Shown here: positions 17,447 through 42,598 of the stretch, piece after piece | Position numbering within the stretch: the first letter of the stretch is position 1 | Layout of the letters: the number at the start of each line of letters is the position of its first letter | Assembly (NCBI RefSeq): GCF_002007645.1 | Contig: NZ_CP019791.1 | Location: 2,170,001 to 2,234,000, forward strand | Direction: 5' to 3' | DNA from: Anaerohalosphaera lusitana | Lineage (GTDB): Bacteria > Planctomycetota > Phycisphaerae > Sedimentisphaerales > Anaerohalosphaeraceae | Length of the DNA: 64,000 nt | The notes under the pieces: model-generated | Told to the model about the DNA's origin: nothing | Databases searched by the model: none | The model's input: only the letters and a program-made list of their open reading frames with translations | Position numbers and translations under genes: made by a program

Positions 17447-17520
17447 GGGGTCGTAGCTCAATTGGTTAGAGCATCGGACTGTCGATCCGAAGGCTGAGGG
17501 TTCGAGTCCCTTCGACCTCG
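17447..17520 (+). tRNA. tRNA-Asp (GTC)
   Basis: The cloverleaf is complete. Acceptor GGGGTCG pairs with CGACCTC (one G-U), the D stem is GCTC/GAGC, the anticodon stem is TCGGA/TCCGA with loop CTGTCGA (anticodon GTC), and the T arm contains GGTTCGAGTCC. The discriminator base is G73, an identity element of tRNA-Asp. CCA is not encoded. An integrase gene reads toward its 3' end, so this tRNA is the probable attachment site of the mobile region that follows. Confidence 0.97.
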
Positions 17521-17528
17521 TTTTCATA

Positions 17529-17597: not shown

Positions 17598-18803
17598 TCA
17601 CTTTTGCGTCAGTCCCGAAAAGCCTTTCTGAAGCATCTTATTCATCAGCTTGCTTGCCGAGGCCAGATTTTCAGGACAAACTGCCAAATAGTATTGTCGA
17701 GTTGTGGTTATATTAGAGTGCCCCGCAAATTGCTGTACGATTTGGATTGGCAGATGTTGTGCCCAGTTAGTTATTGCAGACCTTCTTAAGTCATGTATTG
17801 AGTACTCACAAATCTTCGCTTTCTTACAGAGTGTATTGAATTTTTTTGGAAGATTGTTGATTACTTCACACTTAGAGTTCCAAGTGCCTCTATCTATCCG
17901 CTGTTTGATATGTCTCAATCTTTCTGGCGAGAGGAAAACATAAGGTGCGCATCCCGTTGACTCGAAATGGATATCTGCGAACAGTTGGGCAGTTTTCTCT
18001 GGCATAGGAATTACACGACGTTCGTGATCTTTTGGTTCCCACTCGATAGTGTGTTCCATGTGCTTTTTTGGATTGACATAAATGTATTGGTTTTCGAAAT
18101 CTATGTCATTCCAAGTCAAATTCACCAGTTCGCCTCTTCTTAAGCCGCAACAGTAAGCGGCAGAGATGAACGTCTTCCACCACAAACTGTCAGTGGTGTG
18201 CAGTAATTTACGGTAGTCGTCCATGCTTACATAATTGATTGGTTTGGAAGAAATTCTTCTCTGCTTGATTTTTGCAAAAGGGTTGTCTCCTTCTTTGAGA
18301 TAACCTCTGCGTTCAATTGCGAGATTGAAGATGCTTTTAAGAGTTCGGATGTCTTTGTTTGCTGTTGCTGTACTGATGCCCGAGGCCAGTCTTTTAGCGA
18401 TAAAAGCTTCGGCATCGCGAGCACGTATCTCAGTTAATAGGGTGTTGCCGCCTATGAACTTTTTAAAGAGTTTGAGCTTATGCATTTGCTCAACTAATGT
18501 GGCATCAGCGACCTGTCCTTTAGTAAGGATTTTATGTTCCGCGACAAAATCTTCGAACGCTATCCTCTTTGGTCTGTCCTGCTTACCGCAGTTTACCTGC
18601 TCCTGGAGCTGACGGGCAAAATTGTCAGCCTGCTTTCTCGTCTTGAAGCTTTTTGAATACCTCTTGCGGTCAGTTCCGAACCATCGAACTACCCAGTTGT
18701 GGCGTCTATTTTTGGGCCAGTCGCTTTTGGGTATTTTCCTGCCGTTTTCTGTCGGAGCAGGTTCGAGCCATCTGCGATAAATGCCAATTTTTTCTGTTGC
18801 CAT
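17598..18803 (-). CDS. int: Tyrosine recombinase (phage/ICE-type integrase)
   Basis: The 401-aa protein has an N-terminal arm/core-binding region and a C-terminal catalytic domain. Catalytic residues are visible: Arg in CGLRRGELVNLTW, His-x-x-Arg in IHDLRRSAITNW, and His plus the nucleophilic Tyr in GHSNITTTRQYYL. ATG 18803 is chosen because AAAGGAG lies 7 nt upstream; codons upstream of it are out of place. It ends 77 nt from the 3' end of tRNA-Asp, the classic position of an integrase that recombines at a tRNA gene. It should catalyse integration and, with the small DNA-binding protein next door, excision. Confidence 0.93.
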   Translation of the reverse strand: MATEKIGIYRRWLEPAPTENGRKIPKSDWPKNRRHNWVVRWFGTDRKRYSKSFKTRKQADNFARQLQEQVNCGKQDRPKRIAFEDFVAEHKILTKGQVADATLVEQMHKLKLFKKFIGGNTLLTEIRARDAEAFIAKRLASGISTATANKDIRTLKSIFNLAIERRGYLKEGDNPFAKIKQRRISSKPINYVSMDDYRKLLHTTDSLWWKTFISAAYCCGLRRGELVNLTWNDIDFENQYIYVNPKKHMEHTIEWEPKDHERRVIPMPEKTAQLFADIHFESTGCAPYVFLSPERLRHIKQRIDRGTWNSKCEVINNLPKKFNTLCKKAKICEYSIHDLRRSAITNWAQHLPIQIVQQFAGHSNITTTRQYYLAVCPENLASASKLMNKMLQKGFSGLTQK

Positions 18804-18883
18804 TTGGTAACTCCTTTCTGCAGTTACCACTGGCGACTGACAGAGGGATTGTACCAGATTCGAGGCGTCAGCGCAAGTGCTGT

Positions 18884-19135
18884 CTAGATGTTTTCCGTCT
18901 TGACGGAGAGGAAGGCCTCGAGCTCACTTTTGAGATACCATACTCGTCTGGCGTATTTGGTGGCACAAAGTTCGCCTCTGTCTCGCCAGTAATTGAGTGT
19001 CCTTCTGGCTGACTTTGGTGTGTGGCCTGTCTGGTCGAGCCGCAGGAACATTGCAGCTTCGACCGGAGTCATCAGCTCAGGGAAGACATGCGGCCTTGGG
19101 GGCCAATCGTATTCATTTTGTTCTCTTAGATCCAT
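18884..19135 (-). CDS. Excisionase-like small DNA-binding protein
   Basis: The 83-aa protein has the helix-turn-helix layout of the HTH_17/MerR-like excisionase family (MTPVEAAMFLRLD, then SARRTLNYWRDRG and the wing with RRVWYLKSELEAFL). Such proteins bend attachment-site DNA and direct an integrase toward excision. It lies directly upstream of the integrase on the same strand, and its start overlaps the end of the primase gene by 23 nt, so the three probably share a transcript. Confidence 0.75.
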   Translation of the reverse strand: MDLREQNEYDWPPRPHVFPELMTPVEAAMFLRLDQTGHTPKSARRTLNYWRDRGELCATKYARRVWYLKSELEAFLSVKTENI

Positions 19136-20171
19136 GTTTTCTGCCGGCTTTTATTCTGTAATAGAAACAGCTTTCTTTACTGCAGTATTTTTGCATGACC
19201 GGGTGGGTGCACCCGGCAAAGCCGGGGTGCTGATGTGCCCAGAATGCGATCCTTTTGATAAAGTCGGGGTCATCTATGGGTTGCCTGCTGTCTATGGTGC
19301 GTATTCGTTTGATGATCTGTTCCGGGTGCATGTTTATCCATCTGTAAAACCGTGCCAGAGCAAGATATGTCTGGTGCCGGATTCCGTCTGGCAGGGTGGT
19401 GCTCTGGATGTTTTCAATGCAGGGAGGGATTCGCCAGCCCTGTTTAAAGTCAGAATTGTCCTGCGTAGTGGCCGTGGTTTTGCAAGCTGCTTTTGCAACA
19501 GCCCTGATGGCTTTTCGATACCACAGACCGGCTGTGTTGCTGTATTTGGCGGTTACAAAGCTGTCTTCGGATCTTGGGTGTTCGGCCAGTTTTGCGATCT
19601 GGTCTGCACTGAGATGCAGCAGCTCCTTGTGGAGAAGGGGGATTTTATATAGCCCGCTTTTACTGTTGATGGAGTTTGGGATTCGCCAGAGCCGCCTGTG
19701 GGTGTAGACGGTCCTGTCAATGGTTTCGATGCCGTAGCTGCAGGCTTTAAGGGCCATCTTGTTATAGAGCTCCATGATGTATCTGGAAGGGAAGGCATCG
19801 AACACTTCGGGAGGTATGGTAACGTGAAATCCTTTGCTGCCGCTGAAGTAGATTTCGAGCATGTCGGTGCCGATTTCGAGTCTGTCTGTTGTCAGCTCGC
19901 AGAGCTTGAGAGTGTCGGACCTGGCTTTTTCCAGGTCATCAGGCGAGTCGATATCGAAGAAGACCGGAGCGATGAAAGCAGAGTTAAGATCATCTTTTTC
20001 GAAGAGCTGGACCGTGGTGAATATGTTCGTGTTGCCGTACTTTTTACGCCAGTTGTTGATGGCTTCAAGGTTGTCCCTGCCGGCCAGTACGCCGCGGACC
20101 ATCTTGCCACCGGGCAAAAGGGCGGCAAGTTCGATCCAGCGAAAACATCTTTTTTGAAGGAAGTCATTCAT
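19113..20171 (-). CDS. Archaeo-eukaryotic primase: PriS-like core with PriL-like FeS C-terminus
   Basis: The 352-aa protein has the AEP polymerase motifs: acidic pair FFDIDSP (D73, D75), SGSKGFHVTIP (Lys113, His116) and RRLWRIPNS followed by SGLYKIPLL. The C-terminal part starts with PPC (Cys251), then has Cys321, Cys330 and Cys335 in GFAGC and KYCSKESC. The PPC...R...LA.F...G/N pattern and four Cys resemble the iron-sulphur C-terminal domain of the archaeal/eukaryotic primase large subunit. In those enzymes PriS and PriL are separate or rarely fused. It would make primers for element replication. The downstream overlap with the excisionase-like gene ties it to the integration module. The iron-sulphur assignment is inferred from Cys spacing only. 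Confidence 0.82.
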   Translation of the reverse strand: MNDFLQKRCFRWIELAALLPGGKMVRGVLAGRDNLEAINNWRKKYGNTNIFTTVQLFEKDDLNSAFIAPVFFDIDSPDDLEKARSDTLKLCELTTDRLEIGTDMLEIYFSGSKGFHVTIPPEVFDAFPSRYIMELYNKMALKACSYGIETIDRTVYTHRRLWRIPNSINSKSGLYKIPLLHKELLHLSADQIAKLAEHPRSEDSFVTAKYSNTAGLWYRKAIRAVAKAACKTTATTQDNSDFKQGWRIPPCIENIQSTTLPDGIRHQTYLALARFYRWINMHPEQIIKRIRTIDSRQPIDDPDFIKRIAFWAHQHPGFAGCTHPVMQKYCSKESCFYYRIKAGRKHGSKRTK

Positions 20172-20225: not shown

Positions 20226-20642
20226 TTACCCATAAAGAAGCTTGTCGCCCTCGGCTTCGGGATAGATCTCGATGCCCTTTTCCCTTACAAAAAGGCGGAC
20301 GCAGTCTCCGCTAACGCATGAAATGTGATCCCATATGTAGCTCGGAAGATTTATCCTGGCGTTGCTGCTGACGGACACCGTCTTACCGAATACTTTGTGG
20401 TCTACATGTAAGGAACCGCCTGAGTTGTTGCTAAGATACTCTCTCGTTTCTTCGGCGGCACCGGGCACTGCAAGGAGAATGTGCAGCTTGGGAGAGAATG
20501 CGAGGAAAGCTACGAGCTTCTCGGGGTGAGCCATAATCGCTAAAAGCTCTTTGCTTAAACTTATCCTCGTTGTGTCGATGAATCTCGTTGCTGTATCGCG
20601 TACCGGACCGGCCGGGTGGGTTGGTGTATTGGTTGTACCCAT
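20226..20642 (-). CDS. Hypothetical protein with possible AbrB/MraZ-like motif
   Basis: The 138-aa protein has a good ribosome site (AAAGGAG, 6 nt before ATG). I do not recognise it with certainty. The C-terminal half contains NARINLPSYIWDH and CVRLFVREKGIEIYPEAE, a rhythm like the swapped-hairpin AbrB/MraZ fold (x-R-I-x-L-P followed by strand-turn-strand). If so, it would be a DNA-binding regulator of the primase-xis-int operon that starts 54 nt downstream. An ISL3 element is inserted 29 nt upstream of its start codon. Confidence 0.55.
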   Translation of the reverse strand: MGTTNTPTHPAGPVRDTATRFIDTTRISLSKELLAIMAHPEKLVAFLAFSPKLHILLAVPGAAEETREYLSNNSGGSLHVDHKVFGKTVSVSSNARINLPSYIWDHISCVSGDCVRLFVREKGIEIYPEAEGDKLLYG

Positions 20643-22846: not shown

Positions 22847-23755
22847 TTATCTCCCTTCAGGACTTAGATTTCGCTTTTTAGGGCAGAACCTGCCAATCAT
22901 GAGTATTCCCGTCTTGCCGTCAACCAACTCAAGCTGGTGCTTTTCCCTGCCGTCATAGACATAAACATGTTTCATCGGCTCTAGCAGCAATGGGAAAACC
23001 GTATCCTTGTACGTGAGCTTAAACTTGCCTTTCACAGACAAAACAAATTCAACTCCATGTGTGTGATCATGAAAACCTATTCGGCCATTGTGTTTGAAAT
23101 CGTAACGGGTGGCCACGAAGTGGGGGACTCCGAAATAGACAGTCCCGCTGCAGTTGTGCAGTTCTAGATAATCGGCGGCATCCTTAAGTTTTAAGAAATC
23201 AAACAGAAGAACCGGTTCATAGGCTTCGCTGGATTTTCGTTCGAAGATTTCGCGGATATTTTCAAATGGGTAAGATTTATTCATCTCCCGAATAAAGCTC
23301 ATCAACTTGAACGGCTTGGCATTAGCCAATTCTTCGAAGCTGTTGATGCCGTTGTTTTGTGCCACTTCCAGTATCTCGCGTATAGGAATGCCGACACTGG
23401 CACATGCATAGGCCATCCAGGCATGTCCGCCGAAAAGCTCTGCGAGGTACTCCTTTTCAGTGGGACTTGGGCGTAAAGTTCGCTCGTAGACCTCTTTTCG
23501 GTATCCTGAAGAAGTTTCAATCTTCCAGTCCATCAGCAGTCTGGAGGCCTTGACTGTGTCGATTTCAAGGTGCTCAAAGATCTTTAGCAGAGTTCTCTCA
23601 GATCCTATTCCTTTGGAGCACAGTCTGCTGATAACCGAAGGGGTGACGTCAATATCATTCGCCAGTTGGATCTGGCTTATCTTTGCTTCTTTGAGGAGAT
23701 TGCGGAGGGTCCTGGCAAAATCTGGTGCCTGCAGTTTAGTTTTGCTTTCAGCCAT
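22847..23755 (-). CDS. HTH (XRE-like) regulator with C-terminal cupin
   Basis: ATG 23755 is chosen because AGGAGC lies 8 nt upstream; the product is 302 aa. Residues about 15-70 are a Cro/CI-type helix-turn-helix (SQIQLANDIDVTPSVISRLCSKG). The C-terminal 80 residues contain a cupin pattern (GFHDHTHGVEFVLSVKGKFKLTY, then HVYVYDGREKHQLEL). The middle is helical and unassigned. XRE-cupin proteins usually sense a small ligand through the cupin barrel. Here it may be the element's repressor, because it sits at the boundary between the xis-int side and the chaperone operon. It is transcribed with the zinc-ribbon gene downstream. Confidence 0.78.
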   Translation of the reverse strand: MAESKTKLQAPDFARTLRNLLKEAKISQIQLANDIDVTPSVISRLCSKGIGSERTLLKIFEHLEIDTVKASRLLMDWKIETSSGYRKEVYERTLRPSPTEKEYLAELFGGHAWMAYACASVGIPIREILEVAQNNGINSFEELANAKPFKLMSFIREMNKSYPFENIREIFERKSSEAYEPVLLFDFLKLKDAADYLELHNCSGTVYFGVPHFVATRYDFKHNGRIGFHDHTHGVEFVLSVKGKFKLTYKDTVFPLLLEPMKHVYVYDGREKHQLELVDGKTGILMIGRFCPKKRNLSPEGR

Positions 23756-23875
23756 GATATCAGCTCCTGACAAAACCTCTTACTACTTATAGTATACAGC
23801 AATATATCAATTTAAGCAAGCAAAATTACTATAAATGCAATATAATAATTGAATTAAAAAATATCGTAATTGCGG

Positions 23876-23993: not shown

Positions 23994-24530
23994 TTATGGG
24001 TTTACGCTCTGATAGAATTTTTTCACGCTGGGTGAAAGCAGCTCATGTATCCGGCAGTCCTCAAACCTGCAGCTCGAGTCGAAATACATTCTTGCGGCAT
24101 CTGTATCGCCCATCTGATAGTGTATAGCTCCGGCAAGGATCTTGCTGGTACATTTGTCCGAGTGGGACATCTTTGCGGAATGGATCTGTGATGCAGCGAG
24201 CCTGAGGCATTTTTCCCAGTTGAGGTTTTTGTAGGCGGCGATGATTTCTTCGGTCCTGTAATCGTTTTTGTTGGGAGCGGATCGTTTTGTTACAGTCGGC
24301 ACCTTTGCTGTTCTTTTTGCTGTCGATCGACGGATGGGTCTTGAATACTGCTTTGTGTCGCTGGTACTCGCCGATGAACTGCTGCTTGAAGGCTCGTAAG
24401 AATCCAGAAGGGGCTTGGCAATGACAAGGGCCATGTATGCACCTACAATCTCGGATCCTGTACAGCCTGCAAGCGAAGGCAGGATTGAAAGCAGTATGCT
24501 AAAGACCGCTGTTTTGACTTTTGTTGACAT
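23994..24530 (-). CDS. Lipoprotein, hypothetical
   Basis: The 178-aa product has a lipoprotein signal peptide with lipobox LAGC near residue 22. A Ser-rich linker (about residues 47-58) follows and then a basic low-complexity stretch. The last 90 residues contain a helix pair resembling a tetratricopeptide-like unit (EIIAAYKNLNWEKCLRLAASQI, GAIHYQMGDTDAARMYF). It is the last gene of the chaperone-ATPase operon and overlaps the end of the J-like membrane gene by 32 nt. It may act with that membrane protein on the outside face of the inner membrane. Confidence 0.7.
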   Translation of the reverse strand: MSTKVKTAVFSILLSILPSLAGCTGSEIVGAYMALVIAKPLLDSYEPSSSSSSASTSDTKQYSRPIRRSTAKRTAKVPTVTKRSAPNKNDYRTEEIIAAYKNLNWEKCLRLAASQIHSAKMSHSDKCTSKILAGAIHYQMGDTDAARMYFDSSCRFEDCRIHELLSPSVKKFYQSVNP

Positions 24531-25368
24531 TGTTATGTCCCCCTGAAATGGTTACGGTTTCGTTTTGGAAGTTGGCCCTGATGATCGTTTCTGAGTGACG
24601 ACTTAACGTTATATGTTTATCGAGGGTTTGACCGGTGTCGGTGCGAAGTTCAAGAACATGCTCGCCCTCTCTCAGGTAGAAAGGTTCGGCCTGCCCGCTG
24701 ACGCCGAGTTCTTCGCCGTCTACTGAGACATGGCACCAGGGTACGGCCAGGACCCGTACCTGGGCGGTTGGGACTTTCATTGCGAGCATCAAGACAACAG
24801 AACCAACACCGGCAAGCGAGACAGAGATCAGTGATATACAGGCGAGGACATTGCAAACTGCGCTGTATCTTATCGAGTTTGAAATGCCCGCAAAGAGTCT
24901 GGCCAGCTGCTGAGAGATAAAAACGGTCGGGACCCAGATGAATTTGAATAACATGTGCAGTATAAAGCCGGCAGTTTGACAGAAGCTGACAAACTGACCC
25001 CATCCGCTGCTCGGGGTGGACCGGTGAGGGTAGTATGATTGTGTCGGGGTTGGCTGGACATTGCCGGAGGAGAAGGGTTTGGGCTGAGGCGGTGTGGAAT
25101 TAGCGAAGTTTGGCGGCTGCTGAGATGCGCCGGAGGTGCTGTTCTGTGAGGCTGCAGTTTGTCTTATTGTATCGATGGCCCGGGCGATCTGGCTGAGTTT
25201 GTCGATGGTTTCTTCTCTTTGCTCGGGTGTTGTGCCGGGCATGTTGAGCCTGTTTTGCAGTTTCCGGCGTAGTTTTTTATATGCATCTTCGGCGATCAGA
25301 AGATCGTTAGTGTTGATCTCCAGCAGGGATTTTGCCTGTTCGACCGTCATGTGATACGCCGGGTTCAT
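24499..25368 (-). CDS. Membrane protein with degenerate J-like N-terminus and PEGA-like C-terminus
   Basis: The 289-aa protein has three parts. Residues 7-70 form helices spaced like a J-domain (AKSLLEI, then AEDAYKKLRRKL and later KLSQIARAIDTI), but the diagnostic His-Pro-Asp between helices is missing (RLNMPG instead). A Pro/Ser/Gln-rich linker (70-120) leads to two membrane segments (about 131-151 and 171-197). The tail (205-270) looks like a PEGA beta unit (VSVDGEELGVSGQAEPFYLREGEHVLEL). It starts by ATGA overlap with the preceding gene. With DnaK and GrpE-like genes in the same operon, a membrane-bound pseudo-J partner is an attractive reading, but this is inference. Confidence 0.6.
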   Translation of the reverse strand: MNPAYHMTVEQAKSLLEINTNDLLIAEDAYKKLRRKLQNRLNMPGTTPEQREETIDKLSQIARAIDTIRQTAASQNSTSGASQQPPNFANSTPPQPKPFSSGNVQPTPTQSYYPHRSTPSSGWGQFVSFCQTAGFILHMLFKFIWVPTVFISQQLARLFAGISNSIRYSAVCNVLACISLISVSLAGVGSVVLMLAMKVPTAQVRVLAVPWCHVSVDGEELGVSGQAEPFYLREGEHVLELRTDTGQTLDKHITLSRHSETIIRANFQNETVTISGGHNNVNKSQNSGL

Positions 25369-25832
25369 GATATGATCTTAAAATTATCCGGTACCTTTTT
25401 ATTTCGGCACAGGTGCCTGTATATGTTCTTTATGGCTGCCGCCCTGGAGATGTCATCGCCGCGGTTGGGCAGCAGTTGATTGCATACCTCGGCGAATTGA
25501 GCGTATGAGCATTCCACGCCCATCGCCTTGACAATGTGGTAGATTTCGGTATGCCGGTTACTGAGTTCTTTTTTGGCATCCTTGGAATCTTCCGATGTCG
25601 TTGTTTTTTTGTTTTTGTAAAAGACAACGGGCCTTCCTTCTATGTCCACACATGTTTCTTTGATCGCTTGGCACTTTTGCACAAGTTCGTTATCGTAGTA
25701 TGGCCTGTTGTTTGCAGGATCGCGAAAGGGCCTTGGGAATACGCCTTGATCAAGCAATTCGTAAAATCGGGCTCTTGAAAACCCCAGCAGTTTTGCTGTC
25801 TTTGAAACCGAATATTTTTCTTTTTCGCTCAT
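25365..25832 (-). CDS. MerR/HTH_17-like regulatory protein
   Basis: The 155-aa protein starts at ATG 25832 (AGGA just upstream). Residues 1-50 have the HTH_17 pattern: SVSKTAKLLGFSRARFYELLDQGVFP, then a wing with NNRPYYDNELVQ. The C-terminal part is helical (IVKAMGVECSYAQFAEVCNQLL) and not recognised. It overlaps the J-like gene by 4 nt. It could control the operon or the copy number of the element. Confidence 0.7.
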   Translation of the reverse strand: MSEKEKYSVSKTAKLLGFSRARFYELLDQGVFPRPFRDPANNRPYYDNELVQKCQAIKETCVDIEGRPVVFYKNKKTTTSEDSKDAKKELSNRHTEIYHIVKAMGVECSYAQFAEVCNQLLPNRGDDISRAAAIKNIYRHLCRNKKVPDNFKIIS

Positions 25833-25845
25833 TTTGATCCTCACG

Positions 25846-26811
25846 CTAGACGGTATTTTTCAAATGGATGCATCCTTTGTCCGTGATAGAAAGGCGGCCG
25901 TGCGTTTTTTTGATAAGACCTGTTTTCAGCAGGAAAGGCTCGCTCCTTTCGGACAGATCTTCGATATCAAGTCTTGTCGAAGATGCGATTTCGCTGATAG
26001 AGGCACTTTCTTTCAGCTCCAGTATCTTGAGCAGGCTGCGATCGGTTTCATCGAGTCCGAGGCTGTCGATCTTGAGCTCTCTGAGTGTTTGAGCGACATC
26101 AAAAGCAGTGATCAGGTCCCTGTCTTCGGCCCGGACCTTTTCGACGGCAGTATTGGCGATCCGATCTATTGCGATCGAGGCGGAGTTTTTGCTGCGATCG
26201 GCGATTTGCCTGGTAAGTTGGGGATGTTCGAGTTTCAAGCCATTTCTGTGGAAATAGTCATTTATGATTTCTGCAAGCGTGTTTGCCTGGTAATGATCAA
26301 ACTGCAAAGATGTGCAAAGGTTTTGCTTTAGCCTGTCGATGATGTTATGCTCGTCGGTGGCTGTTAGAATCAACGTAAAAGGTTCGACTGAGAGCGAATA
26401 GGATCTGGCGTCTGGGACGTTAGGCGATTGAATAAAAGCCTGCGAAAGGGCGGTTGAAAGCATTAGCTGGAGAGGCTCTTTGAGCTTCTCTGCGTTGTCG
26501 ATGAGAAGCGTTGACCGATCGTGGTGGTCACGGCAGAGCATGAATCTGTACAGGTCACCGGTTTCTATACTATTTGCCGCGGCAAGATAGAGATGATGGT
26601 TGCCGAGGGAGTTGTGATACGCCCTTGCGCAGAACTTTTTGCCGGTTCCACGGGGCCCGCAGATCAGAATGCCCGTGCTCGAAGGTGACCGGCTGTCGGG
26701 GATGGAACTCAACTGCTGCAGTGCAGAGACGGCCCCTGGTCTCCCCGATACATCCGAAAGTGTGGGCCAGGGCTGTTTCTGTTTCTGTTTTGGAGGCTGA
26801 TTAGCTGTCAT
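25846..26811 (-). CDS. RuvB-like AAA+ protein with altered nucleotide-site residues
   Basis: The 321-aa protein matches RuvB in outline. A P-loop (GPRGTGKK), Walker B-like strand (TLLIDNAEKL), sensor region (TLILTATDEHN) and a C-terminal winged-helix with GLDETDRSLLKIL and KTGLIKKTHGRLSITDKG follow the RuvB order. But the P-loop ends GKK instead of GK(S/T), and Walker B has D-N where RuvB has D-E. ATP hydrolysis should therefore be weak or absent. ATG 26811 is chosen (GAGGA 6 nt upstream). It overlaps the vWA gene by 11 nt. RuvB normally drives Holliday-junction branch migration; no RuvA is seen here. Confidence 0.72.
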   Translation of the reverse strand: MTANQPPKQKQKQPWPTLSDVSGRPGAVSALQQLSSIPDSRSPSSTGILICGPRGTGKKFCARAYHNSLGNHHLYLAAANSIETGDLYRFMLCRDHHDRSTLLIDNAEKLKEPLQLMLSTALSQAFIQSPNVPDARSYSLSVEPFTLILTATDEHNIIDRLKQNLCTSLQFDHYQANTLAEIINDYFHRNGLKLEHPQLTRQIADRSKNSASIAIDRIANTAVEKVRAEDRDLITAFDVAQTLRELKIDSLGLDETDRSLLKILELKESASISEIASSTRLDIEDLSERSEPFLLKTGLIKKTHGRLSITDKGCIHLKNTV

Positions 26812-27418
26812 TTTCAATCCTCAGTCCCGCTGCAAGGTTTTCATAATGTCTTATTAGTGTCTCAGAGTCGTCAATGAAACGATAGTGGATGTAACCGTCG
26901 GGATCGGTGGTTGCGATATCTTTAAGGAGCTGTTCATCCACATCACGCGGCTGGCCGCCGATGCCGATGGTGTCGATCACTACGCCGCGAGATTTGAGTG
27001 ACTCGGCGATCTTCATGTGTTTTGAACTCATCGAGATGTGACCGTCGGTCAATATTATCAAACTTACCTTGCATCCGTGCTTGCGATAGTGGTCGGCATA
27101 GTAATTTGCGGCTTCAAGGCCCGCACTGCGTGTGCCGCCGCGAGGACGAAGCGACTTAACCGCACTGCGGATCGCATCGATCCGGCAAACCGGTACGGGT
27201 TCGCAGAAAACACGTTCTTTATTATTGAAGCCAATCCCCACGAACAGATCATCCGGGTTGATGGCAGTACGCGTTTGGCAGAACGCCAGAATGCCGTCCT
27301 GTGCGGATTCCTGGCGTGTGCTGCCATTGCGGTCGAGTGTGCCAGAGCTTCCTGAATTATCAACCGAACCCAAGAACACTTTGGGTCTCGTTGATGGTAA
27401 AACGGTGTGTGATGTCAT
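26801..27418 (-). CDS. von Willebrand factor A domain protein
   Basis: The 205-aa protein is essentially one vWA domain. Its metal-ion-dependent adhesion site is visible: D-x-S-x-S in VDNSGSSG, Thr in RGGTRSAGL and Asp in IILTDGHIS. Ribosome site AGGAG lies 8 nt before ATG. In bacteria intracellular vWA proteins often pair with MoxR/AAA+ ATPases and act as adaptors. Here it sits between DnaK (27 nt upstream) and the RuvB-like ATPase (11-nt overlap), so it may recruit client complexes to one or the other. Confidence 0.82.
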   Translation of the reverse strand: MTSHTVLPSTRPKVFLGSVDNSGSSGTLDRNGSTRQESAQDGILAFCQTRTAINPDDLFVGIGFNNKERVFCEPVPVCRIDAIRSAVKSLRPRGGTRSAGLEAANYYADHYRKHGCKVSLIILTDGHISMSSKHMKIAESLKSRGVVIDTIGIGGQPRDVDEQLLKDIATTDPDGYIHYRFIDDSETLIRHYENLAAGLRIENDS

Positions 27419-27445: not shown

Positions 27446-28984
27446 TTATGATGCTGGCTTAGACAGACTTGAAAAACCATCCCTGGTGCAAGTGCCAAGC
27501 TGCAATTCGATGTCCACGGGCTTATTGAGAAGGGTGTCAACGGCAGTGATTTCAACCAGGCCCTCGTCTGACATACTGACGGTGACGTTTATGCGGTTTG
27601 CGTTCTTCTGCTCGGTTTCGACAGGCTGAACGCTGAGCTGGGCCGACTTCAAAGGCGTGTGATTCTCGCTGAGATCGTTCGCTCCGCCGTCATAGAGCTT
27701 CACATTGACCACTGAAGCACTGCGGTGACTGGGGGTGAACTTAAAGGATTTTGAATACGGCAGTACTGAGCCTGAGGGAATCAATACGGAATTGTATTCA
27801 CGCTGGTCATCGCCCTTCATGGCGGCGATACACAGGTCAGTAGGGCAAATATTGGTTACGGCAAGCTGACTGGGTAAAAGCGTCTTACCGGCAACCTCAA
27901 GAGGTGTATGGTCGTCACCGAATTTCTTTGCCGCATAGATCGCAGCTCCCATGGCAACGACTTTGTCCATCTCGACATCGCGCCGAGGTTCCTGGGCAAA
28001 GATTTTGCGGATGATGTCGGGAACAAAGAAATTGTTGCTAGAGCCGCCTGCGAGAAGCACCATATCGATCTGATCCGGTGAGAGATTTGCCTCATCGAGA
28101 GCCTCGCGACAGTATTTTTCTATCCGCTCGATGATCGGCTTTGCCAGTTCTGTGAGCTTGTCACGGCTGAGACCGACCTTGCAGATCTTTTCGCGGTTGT
28201 CTACTGCAATGTTGGTCTCCTCTGACATTGACAGGGTTTCCTTTGCATCACGGCAGCGATCCTTGAGTTCATAAGCTATCTGAAGGTTGCTTTCAAGGTC
28301 GATGGGGCAGCCCTGCTTTTGTGCCTGGTCAACGGTGTATGACAAGACAGCGTCGTCAATGTCTTCTCCACCGGTGTCCCTGTCGCCTGAAATAGAGAGC
28401 ACACTGAACTTGCCTGTCCCATCGAAATCGATGATCGAGATGTCAAAAGTTCCGCCGCCGAAATCGAACACGGCAGTCTTACAAGGACTGTCACTTTTGG
28501 GATCATGAGCCAGCTTTGCAGCCACCGGTTCCGGGGCAAGCTTAATCCCGGCAAAGCCGGCCCTCTCAGCAGCCCACTTTACGGCCCTTTTTGCTCGTTC
28601 AGGGTACTTGGCCGGTACGGTTATTACAACATCGCTGACGGATTCGCCAAGGTAGTCCTCTGCGCAAGACTTTAAATATTCAAGGATGGCGGCTGCAATC
28701 TGCTCCGGCGTGTAGTCCGAAAGTACAGGCAGGGAATTGCCGTCGGAATCGACTTTGCCCATGTGCCGCTTCGATGAATCAACAAAGTTTTCGGGATCAA
28801 ACTGCCGTTCGTTAAGAGCAGCCCGGCCGACGATCAGTTCATCGCCTTTGAGATAGGCACATGAACGTGTCAAAAAATCGCCAACATTGTTGGGGATGAT
28901 CTTGCTTTTTCCTTTTTCGATAATGGAAACCAGAGAATTCGTGGTGCCAAGATCGATTCCTATGGCTTTTGTTTCTGAGTTCAT
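27446..28984 (-). CDS. dnaK: Hsp70/DnaK chaperone, short form
   Basis: The 512-aa protein has all ATPase landmarks: phosphate-1 (GIDLGTTNSLVSI), phosphate-2 (VFDFGGGTFDISI) and the adenosine motif (VLLAGGSSNNFFVP). The substrate-binding beta domain is present (KSFKFTPSHRSASVVNVKLYDGG). The alpha-helical lid of housekeeping DnaK (about 610-640 aa) is missing. It would bind and release peptides or protein complexes but with faster exchange. It lies 16 nt downstream of the GrpE-like gene. This is probably an element-specific Hsp70 and not the cellular DnaK. Confidence 0.93.
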   Translation of the reverse strand: MNSETKAIGIDLGTTNSLVSIIEKGKSKIIPNNVGDFLTRSCAYLKGDELIVGRAALNERQFDPENFVDSSKRHMGKVDSDGNSLPVLSDYTPEQIAAAILEYLKSCAEDYLGESVSDVVITVPAKYPERAKRAVKWAAERAGFAGIKLAPEPVAAKLAHDPKSDSPCKTAVFDFGGGTFDISIIDFDGTGKFSVLSISGDRDTGGEDIDDAVLSYTVDQAQKQGCPIDLESNLQIAYELKDRCRDAKETLSMSEETNIAVDNREKICKVGLSRDKLTELAKPIIERIEKYCREALDEANLSPDQIDMVLLAGGSSNNFFVPDIIRKIFAQEPRRDVEMDKVVAMGAAIYAAKKFGDDHTPLEVAGKTLLPSQLAVTNICPTDLCIAAMKGDDQREYNSVLIPSGSVLPYSKSFKFTPSHRSASVVNVKLYDGGANDLSENHTPLKSAQLSVQPVETEQKNANRINVTVSMSDEGLVEITAVDTLLNKPVDIELQLGTCTRDGFSSLSKPAS

Positions 28985-29000
28985 TATTTAACCCTTTCTG

Positions 29001-29588
29001 TTAAACATCGCTGGAGTTATAGCGAAAAACTGCGGCCTCCGCCGGCCGAAGTTTTTTGTCCTTGTAGATCAAACCGGCTTTGTAAACCTCTGCGATTTTG
29101 CGGTGAAGATCTTGGCGGTCAGTGTCAACGGCTGCAACTGCAACGTGGAGGTCCTGGTCAAATTCGCTGCCCTGTTCGGGGATGATCAGATCAAGGTGAA
29201 CCCTCTTTTCGAGCTTTTCGAGAAACGTCTCCAGGTAAACCGAGATTCGCCTGGCTGATTCGGCGTCTGTCTCAACAAGGCCCTCGTTTACTTTCAAAAG
29301 ATTCATGGTCAGTGATGCTACCTGCACGAACAAAGGCTTGAGGCTTGACTCAACGATATACTCTTCAATCAATCTGCGAATCTGAGCCATTTCCTGTGCA
29401 AGTACCTTGTCGTTGGCCTCGAGCAGAGACAGCTTGTGGTCAAGCTGAGCCAGTTTGGATTCGATGGGCTTGATTTTCTGTGAAAAATCGTCCCCCTTGT
29501 CTTCACTGTCGAGCCTCACTGCGAGCTTTAGAACATCTTCTTCTGTGGCACTTTCCAGGAACTGCTTTAAAAGCTTGTTAATTCTCAT
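29001..29588 (-). CDS. GrpE-like nucleotide exchange factor
   Basis: The 195-aa protein begins with an amphipathic coiled coil (about 35-75, KLAQLDHKLSLLEANDKVLAQEM) and ends with a GrpE-type beta head: LIIPEQGSEFDQDLHVAVAAV followed by YKDKKLRPAEAAVF. The FD..H.AV and LRPA..V positions are the conserved features of GrpE. It starts after AAGGAG and directly precedes DnaK, matching the usual grpE-dnaK order. It is divergent enough to be a dedicated partner of the short DnaK. Confidence 0.8.
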   Translation of the reverse strand: MRINKLLKQFLESATEEDVLKLAVRLDSEDKGDDFSQKIKPIESKLAQLDHKLSLLEANDKVLAQEMAQIRRLIEEYIVESSLKPLFVQVASLTMNLLKVNEGLVETDAESARRISVYLETFLEKLEKRVHLDLIIPEQGSEFDQDLHVAVAAVDTDRQDLHRKIAEVYKAGLIYKDKKLRPAEAAVFRYNSSDV

Positions 29589-29700: not shown

Positions 29701-31773
29701 TTATCGCTTTATATAGTCTGCAACGAGCGTGCATCTTAGTTTCTGCCTCAGTTTTTTCCATTCGGGCCGCTTTTTAAGCAGGGCCAGGAATTGCCTTCTA
29801 AATCTTGTGTCCCTGCATACGAGGATAAAGCTGGTGTCTGCAGTATTGACAGATGCAAGGTAATCCAGAAAATGCCGCAGTTCGTTCTCGGCACGTGAGA
29901 TGCCGATATTGATAAACACCCTGTGCCGGCTTTGGATGTTGGTTGCTGCGATATCTATCCTGAGAGATTTTGATATCTTGACTTCATAGCCGAGATGCCA
30001 GATAGCCTTATCGAAATCGCAGCCGACCGCGTATGCGGCCATCTCGTGCTCGGGACCGCCGTTGGTCAACGGACGATGCTTGTGGCCGATAAGCTTTTTA
30101 CCCTTTGCGGTGACGATCAGAACGCTGAGCATGCCGCCGGCAAGGCCCGTGGAATATTTAAACTCGCGTGCAAACCCATTGTCTGTCAGGTGCTTTTTGG
30201 TCCTCACTCCCTGTGCAGCATTAAGGCCCGCCTTTCGATATAATGCGGTTACCGAAAGGTTTGGCTGGTTACAGACTGCTTTGAGCATGTCCGTTGCCGG
30301 CTGAGGAATTTGACCGGTGCCGGCAGAGCCGGATGATTGAGTACCGTTGGCCGGGCCGACCGCAGGTTTTATGTGAACATGCTGAAGGAATTTTTGTAAA
30401 GACTTTTTCCGCTGAGTCTCGCTGAGTATGTTTTGACAGTGAAAGGGCGGGTACTTAAAAAGGATTGGAAGGTCAAAATGCCTTGGATTGTACAAAAGCG
30501 CCTCATTTTGAGGCATGGTTCTGAGGTAATCCAGCTGCTCATCGTTGATATTCAAAATGTTTTTAAGCTTATAGGGCGATTCGCCTCTGCTGGCTGTGAC
30601 AGCGATAAAGCCTGCGTTCTGGATGATCGGCTGTGAGGTGTTGTCCAGGCTGTGCGGTATCACGATTGTTCCCTGGCCGGCGGACCGGCTCATGGTCATA
30701 ATGTCGCCGACAGGGCCTATGCCTCCGGCAGCATTCTTATCCGCCTGCATCTGAACGCATGGTGTGGCGTCATCGAGCACGAATAGTGCTGGGATTTGTG
30801 AAAGACTCTTTCGACCGAAAAACTGAACGCAGCTGTACCGCCAGTACATCAGGTAGATTGATAAAAAAGCAAGCACCTGAGGATCGATGCCCTCAAGTTC
30901 GAGGATCGCCAGGCCGGGTGTGCTGAAAAGTATCCTGAGCATATCGGAAGAAGAATAGTTCCACATTTCTGCGCCCAGGTTGTCCTCGATGGCCTTTAAA
31001 GAGGTAAGGCAGCTTTCTCTGAGCTGCTCGCGGCGGTAGTTGTATTTATATTTTTCACCATTCCTCTGTGAAACAAATTCGATGATCTGACTCAGCGTAG
31101 GGTATGCACCCTTGGGCCGGTGGTGCACTATTTGATGGAGCTTTTCGTTGAGAAAATTCTGCGCAGCGAATTTATTGAAACTAAGAGCAATTACTCTGCA
31201 GAGCATGTTGATCATCTGCTTGTGGTATCCATCCTGCCATGGCTGCATTATCGAGACGGCCAGGTCGTCGGCTGTAAACGTCTGGGTCAGAGGTGATATC
31301 TCAGGCACGCATGCCAGGTGGCGAAGCTCTTTTTTGCGAACGATAACGACCACTCTGTAACGGTAAAGCAGATCGGGTTTGGTGAGCAGGTGTTTTAATA
31401 CGGTTGTCTTGCCGCTTCCGGTCGGTCCGCTTATGATGCCGTTTCTGCAAAGCTGATCCAGATCGATTCCGGCGGTTATGTCCGTGGATGTCTTGCCGAG
31501 CTGGATAAAGGATGAAAAGGCCGTGGGCGGGTTGCTGTGCGGATAGTTGCCGATGAACGGATCATGAGAAAGTTTGAGTATGGCGCTTATCTGATCCATG
31601 TTCATTTTATACAGCGCCTGGATGTGTTCATCTGCGGTGTCCGTCAACAGCAGTGAGGCGAGCCGGGCCAGCTGAGGATTGTTTTTGACAATGTTTTTGA
31701 TCTGCTGATTGCTGAGCTGGGCCAGGATCTGCTTTTGGCTGTATCGGTTTTTGCTTTCTTTTTCGCTGGTCAT
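29701..31773 (-). CDS. HerA/FtsK-like ATPase with wHTH and degenerate nuclease-like C-terminus
   Basis: The 690-aa protein has a P-loop (ISGPTGSGKTTVLKHLL) near residue 120 and a Walker B (ALFVLDDATP) near 325-335. The ATPase spans about 80-440. A winged-helix region (VTALYRKAGLNAAQGVRTKKHL) follows, then a C-terminal fold starting at GGPEHEMAAYAV. That fold keeps Asp (RIDIAATN) but has VFINIGIS where an active PD-(D/E)xK enzyme would have ExK. The ATPase at 57441 has the same plan with intact residues. HerA/VirD4-like motors pump DNA or proteins through ring hexamers. ATG 31773 follows AAGG. It is the first large gene of the operon. Confidence 0.78.
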   Translation of the reverse strand: MTSEKESKNRYSQKQILAQLSNQQIKNIVKNNPQLARLASLLLTDTADEHIQALYKMNMDQISAILKLSHDPFIGNYPHSNPPTAFSSFIQLGKTSTDITAGIDLDQLCRNGIISGPTGSGKTTVLKHLLTKPDLLYRYRVVVIVRKKELRHLACVPEISPLTQTFTADDLAVSIMQPWQDGYHKQMINMLCRVIALSFNKFAAQNFLNEKLHQIVHHRPKGAYPTLSQIIEFVSQRNGEKYKYNYRREQLRESCLTSLKAIEDNLGAEMWNYSSSDMLRILFSTPGLAILELEGIDPQVLAFLSIYLMYWRYSCVQFFGRKSLSQIPALFVLDDATPCVQMQADKNAAGGIGPVGDIMTMSRSAGQGTIVIPHSLDNTSQPIIQNAGFIAVTASRGESPYKLKNILNINDEQLDYLRTMPQNEALLYNPRHFDLPILFKYPPFHCQNILSETQRKKSLQKFLQHVHIKPAVGPANGTQSSGSAGTGQIPQPATDMLKAVCNQPNLSVTALYRKAGLNAAQGVRTKKHLTDNGFAREFKYSTGLAGGMLSVLIVTAKGKKLIGHKHRPLTNGGPEHEMAAYAVGCDFDKAIWHLGYEVKISKSLRIDIAATNIQSRHRVFINIGISRAENELRHFLDYLASVNTADTSFILVCRDTRFRRQFLALLKKRPEWKKLRQKLRCTLVADYIKR

Positions 31774-31775
31774 GG

Positions 31776-32177
31776 TCAAGCCTTAAACAAGCTGTTGAAA
31801 AATCGTACGATTGGATTGTTTCTCTTGGCGGCGTGTTCTGGACACAGCGGGATACGCTCCTCGTTTTCTTCTGTCAACGCAGCATCCTGCATGCACAGGA
31901 TTCGGCCGCAATCATGGCAGCTTACCGTCTGGGAAGCAGTGAAAAGGCCCTCGCACTCGGAGCACTCTCGTACATCTTCGGGAGATTCAGGCTGTATGCC
32001 TCCGTCAAGTGGTGGGAAAGTGACCCTGTCTTTGTAGGTCCTGCAAAGGCCCTGTGCGTCAGTGTGAGTGATTTCGTATACGAGGAAGTAGACTTCCTTG
32101 CCCGAAGGCAGAATATGTCGGCTGTAATCAACCAGCTCCTTACCGACTATATTAATGTTGAGAGGATTGTTGCTCAT
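31776..32177 (-). CDS. Hypothetical protein with treble-clef-like zinc motif
   Basis: The 133-aa protein starts at ATG 32177. The N-terminal part is beta-rich and unassigned. Residues about 70-115 have Cys pairs (CSECEGLF, CHDCGRILC) and a later CPEH, the spacing of a small zinc-binding treble clef or FYVE/RING-like finger. The stop lies 2 nt before the HerA-like start, so the genes are coupled. Zinc fingers of this type are also found in the E2-RING protein of the right-hand module. Confidence 0.6.
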   Translation of the reverse strand: MSNNPLNINIVGKELVDYSRHILPSGKEVYFLVYEITHTDAQGLCRTYKDRVTFPPLDGGIQPESPEDVRECSECEGLFTASQTVSCHDCGRILCMQDAALTEENEERIPLCPEHAAKRNNPIVRFFNSLFKA

Positions 32178-32181
32178 GTTA

Positions 32182-32358
32182 TCACCATGGCTGGGACAGG
32201 TAATGGTTATATATCCAGATCGCCGCACGGTAAAACGTCAGGCCTATCAGCCAGCAGATAAGAAGTGACGTAAAGACAGCAGCGACCCATATCGGAAGCT
32301 TGGCAAGCGTCAATACAAACTTGCACAGCTTTGCTGCAAAACTTGTTTCCCTTGGCAT
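32182..32358 (-). CDS. Small single-pass membrane protein (58 aa)
   Basis: This small gene has an excellent ribosome site (GGAAGGA, about 6 nt before ATG 32358) and ends TGG TGA 4 nt before the next start. The product is basic at both ends with a strong hydrophobic helix (about residues 22-48, WVAAVFTSLLICWLIGLTF). Position and coupling suggest it is a membrane anchor or gasket for the HerA-like ATPase complex. It has no recognised family. Confidence 0.6.
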   Translation of the reverse strand: MPRETSFAAKLCKFVLTLAKLPIWVAAVFTSLLICWLIGLTFYRAAIWIYNHYLSQPW

Positions 32359-33479: not shown

Positions 33480-38112
<4,633 letters not shown>

Positions 38113-38145
38113 TCAACTGAATATTTCAGAAAGGAAAGAATAAAA

Positions 38146-39027
38146 ATGTCTAATCCAATCGAAAATCGGTATGAATTCGTATATCTCTTCGACGTTGAAA
38201 ACGGCAATCCCAACGGCGACCCGGACGCAGGCAACATGCCCCGGATCGACCCCGAGACCAGCTACGGCATCGTTACGGACGTTTGTCTCAAACGTAAGAT
38301 TCGCAATTTTGTTGAGATCGCACACGACGACAAAGCACCCAATTGCATATACGTGAAAGAGAGGGCTATTCTTGCCAGTCAGCAGGCAAAAGCTTACGAG
38401 GCTCTCAAGCTCAAGAACGATAAGAAAAACGGTGACGGAATTGCTCAAGCACGACGGTGGATGTGTCAGAATTTTTATGATGTTCGTACATTCGGTGCCG
38501 TAATGAGCCTACAAAATTACAACTGCGGTCAGGTTCGAGGCCCTGTGCAGATTAACTTCGGACGGAGCATAGACGCTATCGCCCCAAGGGATCTTTCGAT
38601 AACACGCATGGCTGTCGCCACCGAAAAAGAAGCTAAGTCTCAGGGCGGTGACAACAGGACGATGGGGCGCAAATCCATTGTTCCATATGCTCTCTATCGC
38701 ACTGAGGGATATGTTTCAGCATGCCTGGCGGAAAAGACAGGCTTTGGTGAGGATGATCTGGAGCTGCTCTGGAACTCTCTTGTCAATATGTTCGACCACG
38801 ATAGATCCGCAGCACGGGGCAAGATGTGTCCGCGGAAGCTGATTGTTTTCAAGCACGACAGCAAACTCGGCAACGCCCCCGCACACAAGCTGTTTGAAAC
38901 GGTCGATGTCAAACCGTGCGAAGGCAACCCGCCTCGTGGTTGGGACGATTACGAGGATGGTCTGTCATGTCCGCCTAGCGGCTCGCTGGACGGTTTTAAC
39001 GGCGTCGAAGTTATGCACATACTTTGA
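38146..39027 (+). CDS. cas7c: Cas7c/Csd2 backbone subunit
   Basis: The 293-aa protein carries the Csd2/Csh2 signature ([25 protein letters not shown]) and the thumb/QNY region ([16 protein letters not shown]). Six or seven copies coat the guide RNA in the Cascade complex. The ribosome site AAAGG lies 11 nt upstream. Its end overlaps or abuts cas4. Confidence 0.96.
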
Positions 39028-39029
39028 TC

Positions 39030-39701
39030 ATGTACTCCGAAGACGAGCTTATTTCGATCTCGGCATTGCAGCATTATGCGTTTTGTCCGCGTCAGTGCGG
39101 CCTTATACACATAGAGCAGACCTGGCTGGAAAATATGTTCACTGCTAAGGGACGTGTGCTGCATGAAAAAGTTCACGAAAGTGACAACGAAGTCCGGTCA
39201 GATTTGCGGATCGTACGCGGCCTGCGAATAAGGTCGCTTCGCATTGGTCTTGTCGGTCAGTCGGATGTCGTGGAGTTTCTTCGAAGCGAAACGGGAATTG
39301 TGCTGCCGGGAACAGAAGGTCTCTGGCAGCCTTTTCCGGTTGAATACAAGCGCGGCAAGCCAAAAACTGATTCATCCGACAGCATTCAGCTTTGTGCACA
39401 GGCTATGTGTCTGGAAGAAATGCTGAACGTTAGTATCGAAAAAGCGGCAGTATTTTACGGCAGACCTCGCAAACGGTTTGAAGTCGATGTGACAGACGAG
39501 CTGCGAGAGGAGACGGTGACTGTACTTAAGGCAATTCGTACTATGCTGACGACAGGGCAGACGCCAAAGGCCAAATACAGCCGAAAATGTAAAAGTTGTT
39601 CGCTTTACGCTCGCTGTATGCCCAGAACCACAGGCATTAGTAAACGCATTGGTGCATATATCAGCAAAGCTTATGAGGATCCAGAGGAGGTGCCGGACTG
39701 A
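39030..39701 (+). CDS. cas4: Cas4 (type I-C, FeS exonuclease for spacer processing)
   Basis: The 223-aa protein has the Cas4 start HYAFCPRQCGLIHIEQTW, nuclease motifs (VEYKRGKPK) and a terminal Cys cluster (KCKSCSLYARCMP). The Cys residues hold a 4Fe-4S cluster. It trims prespacers and selects those with a proper PAM. I chose ATG 39030; an in-frame TTG at 39024 overlaps the cas7 stop. It overlaps cas1 by one base. Confidence 0.96.
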   Translation: MYSEDELISISALQHYAFCPRQCGLIHIEQTWLENMFTAKGRVLHEKVHESDNEVRSDLRIVRGLRIRSLRIGLVGQSDVVEFLRSETGIVLPGTEGLWQPFPVEYKRGKPKTDSSDSIQLCAQAMCLEEMLNVSIEKAAVFYGRPRKRFEVDVTDELREETVTVLKAIRTMLTTGQTPKAKYSRKCKSCSLYARCMPRTTGISKRIGAYISKAYEDPEEVPD

Positions 39702-40732
39702 TGAAGCAATTGTTAAATACGCTTTTTGTGACTACGCAGGGGGCATATCTTTCCAAGAAGGGCGATACGGTTGTCGTTAATGTCGAACACAAGCCGGTTC
39801 TGAGAGTGCCCGTTCACAATATCGGATCCATCATATGTTTCGGTAACGTAATGTGCAGTCCCTTCCTGATGGGATTATGCGGGAAACAAAATGTGACACT
39901 TTCATTTCTTACAGAAAACGGTCGTTTCCTTGCTCGTGTACATGGGCCGGTAAATGGGAATGTACTGTTGCGTAAAGAGCAGTTTCGCAGGTCCGACGAC
40001 TTGAATGCCAGTGCCCGTATCGCTCAAACAATGGTAACCGCGAAAATCGCCAACAGCAGAATAGTGCTGCTGCGACACCTTCGTGATAGCTGCAGTATTG
40101 AAGGTGTTAACATTATTCGTAACGCTGTTGAAAATATGATGGAGCATCTGCAGACCTTGCAGGATGAATGCTCTCTGGATACAGTCAGGGGTGTCGAAGG
40201 CATGGCAGCGAATGCATATTTTGACTGCTTTGATCATCTTATGACGGCGAACAAGGATGCGTTTGTCTTTGCGACCCGCAGCCGTCGGCCACCTCTTGAC
40301 AACGTAAATGCTTTGCTCTCATTCGTCTATACTTTGCTGGTGCGTGACGTTGAATCGGCCCTGGAAAGTGCGGGGCTGGACCCTGCAGTGGGCTTTCTTC
40401 ATCGGGACAGACCCGGCCGTCCCAGTCTGGCTTTGGATGTAATGGAGGAATTGCGTGCGTACCTGGCGGATCGCTTTGTTCTTTCGCTGATCAACCGTCA
40501 GCAGGTCAGGCCTTCGGGCTTTACCAGAACCGAATCCGGTGCGGTTATGATGGATGATCAGACTCGTAAGGCACTGCTGGTCGCCTGGCAGAAACGAAAA
40601 CAGGAAGAAATAATGCACCCATTTCTTAAAGAAAAAATCTCGCTGGGATTGCTCCCTCATGCACAGGCAATGTTGCTTGCCCGTTATCTGCGGGGAGAGT
40701 TGGAAGGATATCCGCCGTTTCTTTGGAGATGA
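39701..40732 (+). CDS. cas1c: Cas1 integrase (type I-C)
   Basis: The 343-aa protein shows the Cas1 catalytic positions: Glu in RGVEGMAANAYF, His in VGFLHRDRPGRPSLALDVMEELR, with Asp in the same helix. It integrates new spacers next to the leader with Cas2. It follows cas4 directly. Confidence 0.97.
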   Translation: MKQLLNTLFVTTQGAYLSKKGDTVVVNVEHKPVLRVPVHNIGSIICFGNVMCSPFLMGLCGKQNVTLSFLTENGRFLARVHGPVNGNVLLRKEQFRRSDDLNASARIAQTMVTAKIANSRIVLLRHLRDSCSIEGVNIIRNAVENMMEHLQTLQDECSLDTVRGVEGMAANAYFDCFDHLMTANKDAFVFATRSRRPPLDNVNALLSFVYTLLVRDVESALESAGLDPAVGFLHRDRPGRPSLALDVMEELRAYLADRFVLSLINRQQVRPSGFTRTESGAVMMDDQTRKALLVAWQKRKQEEIMHPFLKEKISLGLLPHAQAMLLARYLRGELEGYPPFLWR

Positions 40733-40748
40733 TTGAAAGGGATATAAG

Positions 40749-41039
40749 ATGATGGTTCTGGTGGCTTATGATGTCAATACTGAGACAAAGGCGGGACGGG
40801 GTCGTTTGAGGCACGTTGCGAAGCTCTGTGAAAATCGTGGTCAGCGTGTGCAGAATTCGGTGTTTGAATGCCTTGTTGATCCCGCTCAATGGGTCGAATT
40901 GCGTCAGGCTCTTGTCGGCGTAATTGCAGAGGATACCGATAGCCTGCGGTTCTATTTTCTTGGCAAGAATTGGAAAAGACGTGTCGAGCATGTCGGGGCC
41001 AAGCCTGGATATGATCCACAGGGGCCAATGATAGTCTGA
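40749..41039 (+). CDS. cas2: Cas2
   Basis: The 96-aa protein starts with the ferredoxin-like strand VLVAYDVNTETKAGRGRLRHVAKLC, which contains the conserved Asp after beta-1. It forms the central dimer of the Cas1-Cas2 integrase. It lies 16 nt after cas1 and directly before the leader. Confidence 0.97.
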   Translation: MMVLVAYDVNTETKAGRGRLRHVAKLCENRGQRVQNSVFECLVDPAQWVELRQALVGVIAEDTDSLRFYFLGKNWKRRVEHVGAKPGYDPQGPMIV

Positions 41040-41225
41040 ATGTGCCATCGCGAACCCCAGTTGCACACGGTTTTGCCGGGAGGTTCGCGATTGATGTAAA
41101 TGCTTTTTGGCAAGTGAATTATGGAAACGAAATATATCTCTGTTCCGGAAATCCCCTTCGACTGCGGAAGGTTCGCGATAAACCCTTGCTAACTTCTGCA
41201 ATGACAGTATTATATAACCCTTACC
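41040..41225 (+). promoter_or_regulatory. CRISPR leader
   Basis: This 186-bp stretch between cas2 and the first repeat has no gene. The 9-mer GGTTCGCGA occurs twice in direct orientation (41082-41090 and 41170-41178) and once inverted (41048-41056). The first pair is a perfect inverted repeat. These may be integration or promoter signals. An AT-rich stretch (TATTATATAACC) lies just before the first repeat. Confidence 0.7.
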
Positions 41226-42446: not shown

Positions 42447-42598
42447 ACTGAGGATTGCTCCTTCCTGCACGCTGGCTGAGCGTCGCTCCCTTATTCTTTT
42501 ACCATCGTCTTACTCCGACAAATTACTCAATACACTGAGTAATTTTACTTTATCTACAAAACAGTGTAAGGCTTTGCCCAACAACGGCTTGTAAATGC

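Follow-up and report, generated by a model that had tools for sequence, protein, structure and literature searches.

Sequence profiles and structure prediction support the reading of the gene at 19113..20171 (minus strand) of the window, the whole 64,000-nucleotide stretch of the Anaerohalosphaera lusitana genome analyzed here, as encoding a single-chain AEP primase in which a PriS-like catalytic domain is predicted to be joined to a PriL-CTD/PriCT-like domain with four cysteines. We consider it probable (roughly 70%) that the product is the DNA primase, perhaps primase-polymerase, of the integrative element that carries it, that it would lay down primers when the excised circle replicates, and that its four cysteines most likely hold a 4Fe-4S cluster. 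The protein is a very compact bacterial version of a PriS + PriL-CTD primase (352 aa) with all four cluster cysteines, and the debated role of the primase Fe-S cluster would become open to test in a simple monomeric enzyme that can be compared with relatives naturally missing one or two cysteines.

The reading frame, for which the initial annotation had given coordinates without a strand, is an intact minus-strand frame of 352 aa with codon-position GC bias. The integrase and excisionase named there as its neighbors lie immediately downstream: a putative excisionase-like HTH_17 protein (xis; 18884..19135, minus strand) follows the primase directly, the primase stop and the xis start sharing 23 nt in overlapping frames, and a tyrosine integrase (int; 17598..18830, minus strand) comes next. 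Upstream is a gene for a small protein with a weak AbrB-like match (20226..20642, minus strand; E 0.002, below cut-off). The integration target is the tRNA-Asp(gtc) gene at 17447..17520 (plus strand), whose 3' end supplies a 50-bp att core at 17476..17525 (plus strand). Exact copies of this repeat are found at 2299362-2299411 and 2331326-2331375 (G000:C1) of the 4.25-Mb genome, and after the second att copy come a related int (47%) and a related xis (78%). Two islands in tandem are therefore likely, the first (2187476-2299411) about 112 kb long and carrying the primase, the second about 32 kb.

The catalytic domain spans residues ~12-200 (19572..20138, minus strand), with D73, D75, H116, D152, R160 and R163 as its marked residues, and is assigned from its fold match and residue conservation. 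Against the window protein, the Pfam PriS model stays below threshold (E 3.8e-4), and a ten-sequence profile leads to PriS structures, with 1zt2 at 3.2e-7. The predicted model of the full-length protein (pLDDT 89.8) superimposes on S. solfataricus PriS (1zt2_C) with Z 15.3 and an rmsd of 2.4 over 175 aligned residues and on human PriS with Z about 15. The motifs DID (D73/D75), SGSKGFH (H116) and RRLWRIPNS sit at the residues originally reported for them, and the marks of the AEP superfamily (DxD motif I, SxH-type motif II, hD motif III) are all present, D73, D75, H116 and D152 being kept in 55-57 of 57 relatives. The predicted primase would be expected to synthesize primers.

The C-terminal domain (residues 241-343; 19143..19451, minus strand) is assigned from profiles and predicted fold as a PriL-CTD/PriX/PriCT-like helical bundle. 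It contains Cys251 within a PPC motif (19419..19421, minus strand) and Cys321, Cys330 and Cys335 in a C-x8-C-x4-C arrangement (19167..19211, minus strand), exactly the four residues that had been listed from the sequence. The unbiased counts come from a profile built from relatives not selected by their cysteines, with which 57 relatives align over the C-terminus. Identities of relatives range over 23-48%. Cys251 is retained in 49/57, Cys321 in 56/57, Cys330 in 53/57 and Cys335 in 47/57; all four occur together in 43 relatives, and at least one is missing in the other 14. In the same 57 sequences, the remaining cysteines of the window protein (C9, C91, C144 and C230) show no conservation. The proposed PriL-like C-terminus with its PPC motif is supported, its cysteines following the order of PriL and being conserved beyond chance in unselected relatives. 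In alignments A3 and A4 the rows were chosen by the cysteine motif, and invariance there is partly circular.

Profile searches connect this tail to PriL. A 24-sequence tail profile searched against the PDB finds S. solfataricus PriL as its top match (E=1.7e-4) with the PPC motif and the three later cysteines aligned, a score to which the cysteines contribute in part, since the 24 sequences were selected for the motif and four conserved cysteines are expected in them. With Pfam, 12 of the 24 family members match PriL (PF04104; best 1.5e-6) and 16 match PriCT-1 (PF08708; best 5e-13); one small family with significant matches to both models links PriCT-1 from mobile elements with the Fe-S domain that archaeal and eukaryotic primases carry. 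On its own, the window tail scores 15.1 bits against PF04104 (E 0.015), below the curated cut-off of 22.4, and the window protein has no PriCT-1 match at E<=1. A smaller tail profile (A5) places human and yeast PriL on top at a supportive but nonsignificant E of 0.13-0.3. No match was returned by phmmer with the tail alone against the PDB or by a PF04104 search over the whole own genome, and a single-sequence search with the window protein found no relatives in viral and genome contigs, where the alignment-based search succeeded. The PriL C-terminal HMM search suggested at the outset is thus positive at the level of the family profile and sub-threshold for the window tail.

Because the structural match list (VIA-align) of the full-length model covers residues 4-216 only, the tail was modeled separately. 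It is predicted as a helical bundle (pLDDT 91.9, pTM 0.84) that matches PriX with Z 9.2 (86 aligned), NrS-1 PrimPol with Z 6.2, Xenopus PriL with Z 5.2 (101 aligned) and RepB' with Z 5.0. Each of the nine top-ranked structural matches is a primase protein with the PriL-CTD/PriX/PriCT module; the first non-primase entry stands at Z 3.7, and unrelated entries score 3.7 and below. Foldseek on the isolated tail also places PriX first, at E=1.0, with no match below 0.001. Structure prediction, which had been proposed as a check, thus returns a PriL-like helical fold. The description of the protein as a PriS-PriL chimera holds for the C-terminal domain of PriL and fails for its N-terminal helical domain, which docks on PriS and is absent from the 352-aa model; the two domains are separated by no more than a single helix (212-231) and a linker modeled with low confidence.

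Whether the four cysteines would instead form a structural zinc site closing a PriCT-like bundle has to be weighed here. Cysteine-only sites with a C-x8-C-x4-C stretch are able to bind zinc, some relatives hold three of the four residues, and computation cannot tell zinc from Fe-S. Against this, the distant first cysteine in PPC and the clustered last three have the same order as, and a spacing similar to, those of archaeal PriL, and PolpTN2 of the Thermococcus nautili plasmid pTN2, which has the same four cysteines, was brown on purification (PMC3973330). We therefore regard zinc as unlikely, while giving it some weight, and favor the 4Fe-4S assignment.

The primase belongs to a known kind, PriS-PriL fusions in mobile elements having been described before: a four-Cys fusion is known in PolpTN2, fusions have been reported for Nanoarchaeum equitans and the Bacillus provirus phBC6A51, and PriCT was linked to the PriL Fe-S domain in 2018. 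PolpTN2 resembles the window primase in combining a PriS-like and a PriL-like domain with four Fe-S cysteines on a mobile element, and differs in being archaeal and about 920 aa long, with the PriL N-terminal part, PriCT-1 and a winged helix (PMC3973330); its catalytic His is not conserved, whereas that of the window primase (H116) is. The N. equitans primase, according to its mentions in PMC11009956 and PMC3973330, is likewise a single chain of PriS and PriL-CTD, but is a cellular archaeal enzyme. In phBC6A51 (BcMCM), which lies outside our alignments, fusion of both primase subunits has been reported (PMC3973330). The PrimPol-PV1 supergroup similarly combines a mobile-element AEP with a PriCT domain related to the PriL Fe-S domain, and the published PriCT-2/PriL comparison aligned two of the four cysteines (PMC5862659, 2018), whereas all four align in the present family; unlike PrimPol-PV1, the window AEP fold is nearer to PriS (Z 15) than to RepB' (Z 11.6).

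In a phylogenetic tree, the window protein falls in a clade of six (support 100/99), five from planctomycetes (the window protein included) and one from a contig labeled as Bacteroidales; the clade is nested in a larger set made up mostly of viral contigs. Small phage or phage-plasmid homologues with all four cysteines include those of P23-45, KLEB27-3, MTATph1 and Bacillus/Paenibacillus plasmids. Thermus P23-45 gp40, KLEB27-3 gp67 and the protein of Moorella phage MTATph1 (315-372 aa) share the two domains and four cysteines of the window primase at 23-29% identity, but have a DnaB-like helicase adjacent or nearby and belong to phages or phage-plasmids, not to integrative elements with Hsp70. 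A DnaB-like helicase gene directly follows the primase in several small phage homologues, and the closest phage homologues are located in replication gene blocks; no dedicated replicative helicase was recognized next to the window primase. Larger relatives carry a fused MCM-like part. Phage and plasmid AEP-MCM proteins of ~1030 aa have an AEP domain 29-30% identical to that of the window primase, with a fused MCM helicase and a different cysteine spacing in the tail.

Bacterial AEPs are nearly always in the service of integrated mobile elements (PMC5862659). The window primase would be made at excision of the element, because its frame runs into that of xis, the gene ahead of int, and may then prime the excised circle independently of the host DnaG. 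The primase helix bundle binds the initiating NTP (PMC5700102, PMC11009956), whose phosphates are held in PriX at the start of the central helix (PMC5700102). In the predicted model this position is occupied by R265 (19377..19379, minus strand), which is present in 57/57 relatives and falls, in a weak alignment, on the Arg of the human PriL segment HHLRHGGR; together with the literature (PMC5700102), these observations point to R265 as a candidate contact of the initiating NTP. The C-terminal domain would accordingly bind the nucleotide, and a 4Fe-4S cluster on the four cysteines would probably act as scaffold, tying the bundle to the C-terminal helix. Such a cluster need not be essential, since 14 of the 57 relatives lack at least one of the cysteines and PriX itself is able to prime with no cluster.

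Upstream of the primase, on the same strand, lies a run of chaperone-related genes (all minus strand in the window). It comprises a putative lipoprotein (23994..24530), whose counterpart in the related locus L038 is directly upstream of the primase; a membrane/PEGA-like protein with a J-like N-terminus recognized by eye from sequence (24499..25368), with a homologue in L038; a weakly matched HTH protein (25365..25844); a RuvB-like AAA+ ATPase (25846..26817; NCBIfam 5e-31, below the equivalog cut-off); a vWA-domain protein (26801..27418; PF00092 3.5e-8); a short Hsp70 (27446..28984), 32% identical to the host DnaK; a GrpE-like protein (29001..29588; PF01025 4e-10); a HerA/FtsK-like P-loop ATPase with a C-terminal nuclease-like part, the latter by eye (29701..31779); and a small Cys-rich, FYVE-like protein (31776..32228), whose L038 counterpart immediately precedes the HerA-like gene. 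In L038 (3462-12498) the small protein, HerA-like ATPase, GrpE, Hsp70, vWA, J-like protein (by eye), lipoprotein, primase, xis and int follow one another on one strand, with a tRNA-Arg at the end. The window has the same order, interrupted by the RuvB-like AAA+ and HTH genes, some other small genes and a transposase that by eye is ISL3-like.

Hsp70, vWA, primase and int also occur together in L039 (tRNA-Asp), L040 (tRNA-Ser) and L041 (tRNA-Ser; integrase identified from its ORF only). A tblastn survey of 80 genome loci found Hsp70 and vWA near the primase in 4/5 clade members outside the window and 0/75 others, a distribution with a chance of ~3e-6 under random placement by our own arithmetic, some of the 75 loci having short flanks; GrpE and the HerA-like ATPase are usually also present. 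The exception, L037, has a JAB-domain gene upstream, and its contig ends at the primase. In the nearest clade, every contig long enough to show it has int at a tRNA gene or next to one. The element Hsp70s, about 500 aa long, fall into two groups and share 27-32% identity with host DnaK. Among 343 sampled planctomycete genomes, the HerA-like ATPase was found in the own genome only, so the gene cluster is rare, and we found no description in the open-licence literature of a compact four-Cys primase heading xis-int together with such a run in planctomycete elements. The run suggests a little-described kind of integrative element. We tentatively propose, as a possibility short of an even chance, that the planctomycete elements form a distinct integrative class in which a PriS-PriL-type Fe-S primase is coupled with a private Hsp70 set (Hsp70, GrpE, vWA and possibly a J-like protein) and a HerA-like ATPase. 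If so, the element would need no host chaperones to assemble or remodel its complex for replication or transfer.

The same neighborhood admits other functions. That the primase and the Hsp70/GrpE/vWA/HerA genes form a defense or conflict system, and not a replication module, is suggested by the use of vWA, Hsp70 and GrpE as building blocks in described conflict systems (PMC7159879), by the match of the HerA-like ATPases to PADLOC mad8/HerA models, and by the CRISPR-Cas and further accessory genes of the same island. We judge this improbable, because the primase overlaps xis and precedes int, in L038 as well, because PADLOC has no match for the primase, Hsp70 or vWA, and because the closest phage homologues stand among replication genes. 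A role in conjugative transfer, with the primase priming the transferred strand in the recipient and the HerA-like ATPase as DNA pump, would suit L038 and L041, where a HerA/FtsK-like gene precedes the primase on its strand; we hold it quite improbable, no relaxase or conjugation apparatus having been recognized among the proteins scanned, which cover part of the island. Finally, the IS-like transposase and other genes that separate the int-xis-primase block from the chaperone block in the window might indicate a decaying remnant in a fossil island, but the intact, GC-biased frame, the retention of all catalytic residues and cysteines and the clean gene run in L038 make this very improbable. 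An element-encoded replicative primase remains our preferred reading.

Several further features of these loci were observed. The island holds a CRISPR-Cas locus (33480-42500) with cas3, cas8c-like, cas7, cas4 and cas1 genes (by sequence) and a repeat array; identity of the primase as a CRISPR-associated Prim-Pol (CAPP) was ruled out, the cas genes being on the opposite strand and beginning some 13 kb off, and the primase being linked to xis/int. Adjoining ThiF (E1-like) and Prok-JAB genes (49884-51436, minus strand) resemble PRTRC or ubiquitin-like systems, and a Prok-JAB gene is near the four-Cys primase in L037 too. The gene at 22847-23773 (minus strand) encodes an HTH protein whose C-terminus looks cupin-like by eye, and that at 57441-59525 (plus strand) a second HerA/CedD/TraC-like ATPase, which may have a nuclease part at its C-terminus. 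In L040, the same locus as L015, the stretch between primase and int (L015:4114-6094) encodes a second vWA and, by eye, an HTH-protein kinase-FHA protein. The same island of this bacterial genome also encodes an Orc1/Cdc6-like AAA+ protein (61054-62163, plus strand; TIGR02928 1.2e-38, below its cut-off).
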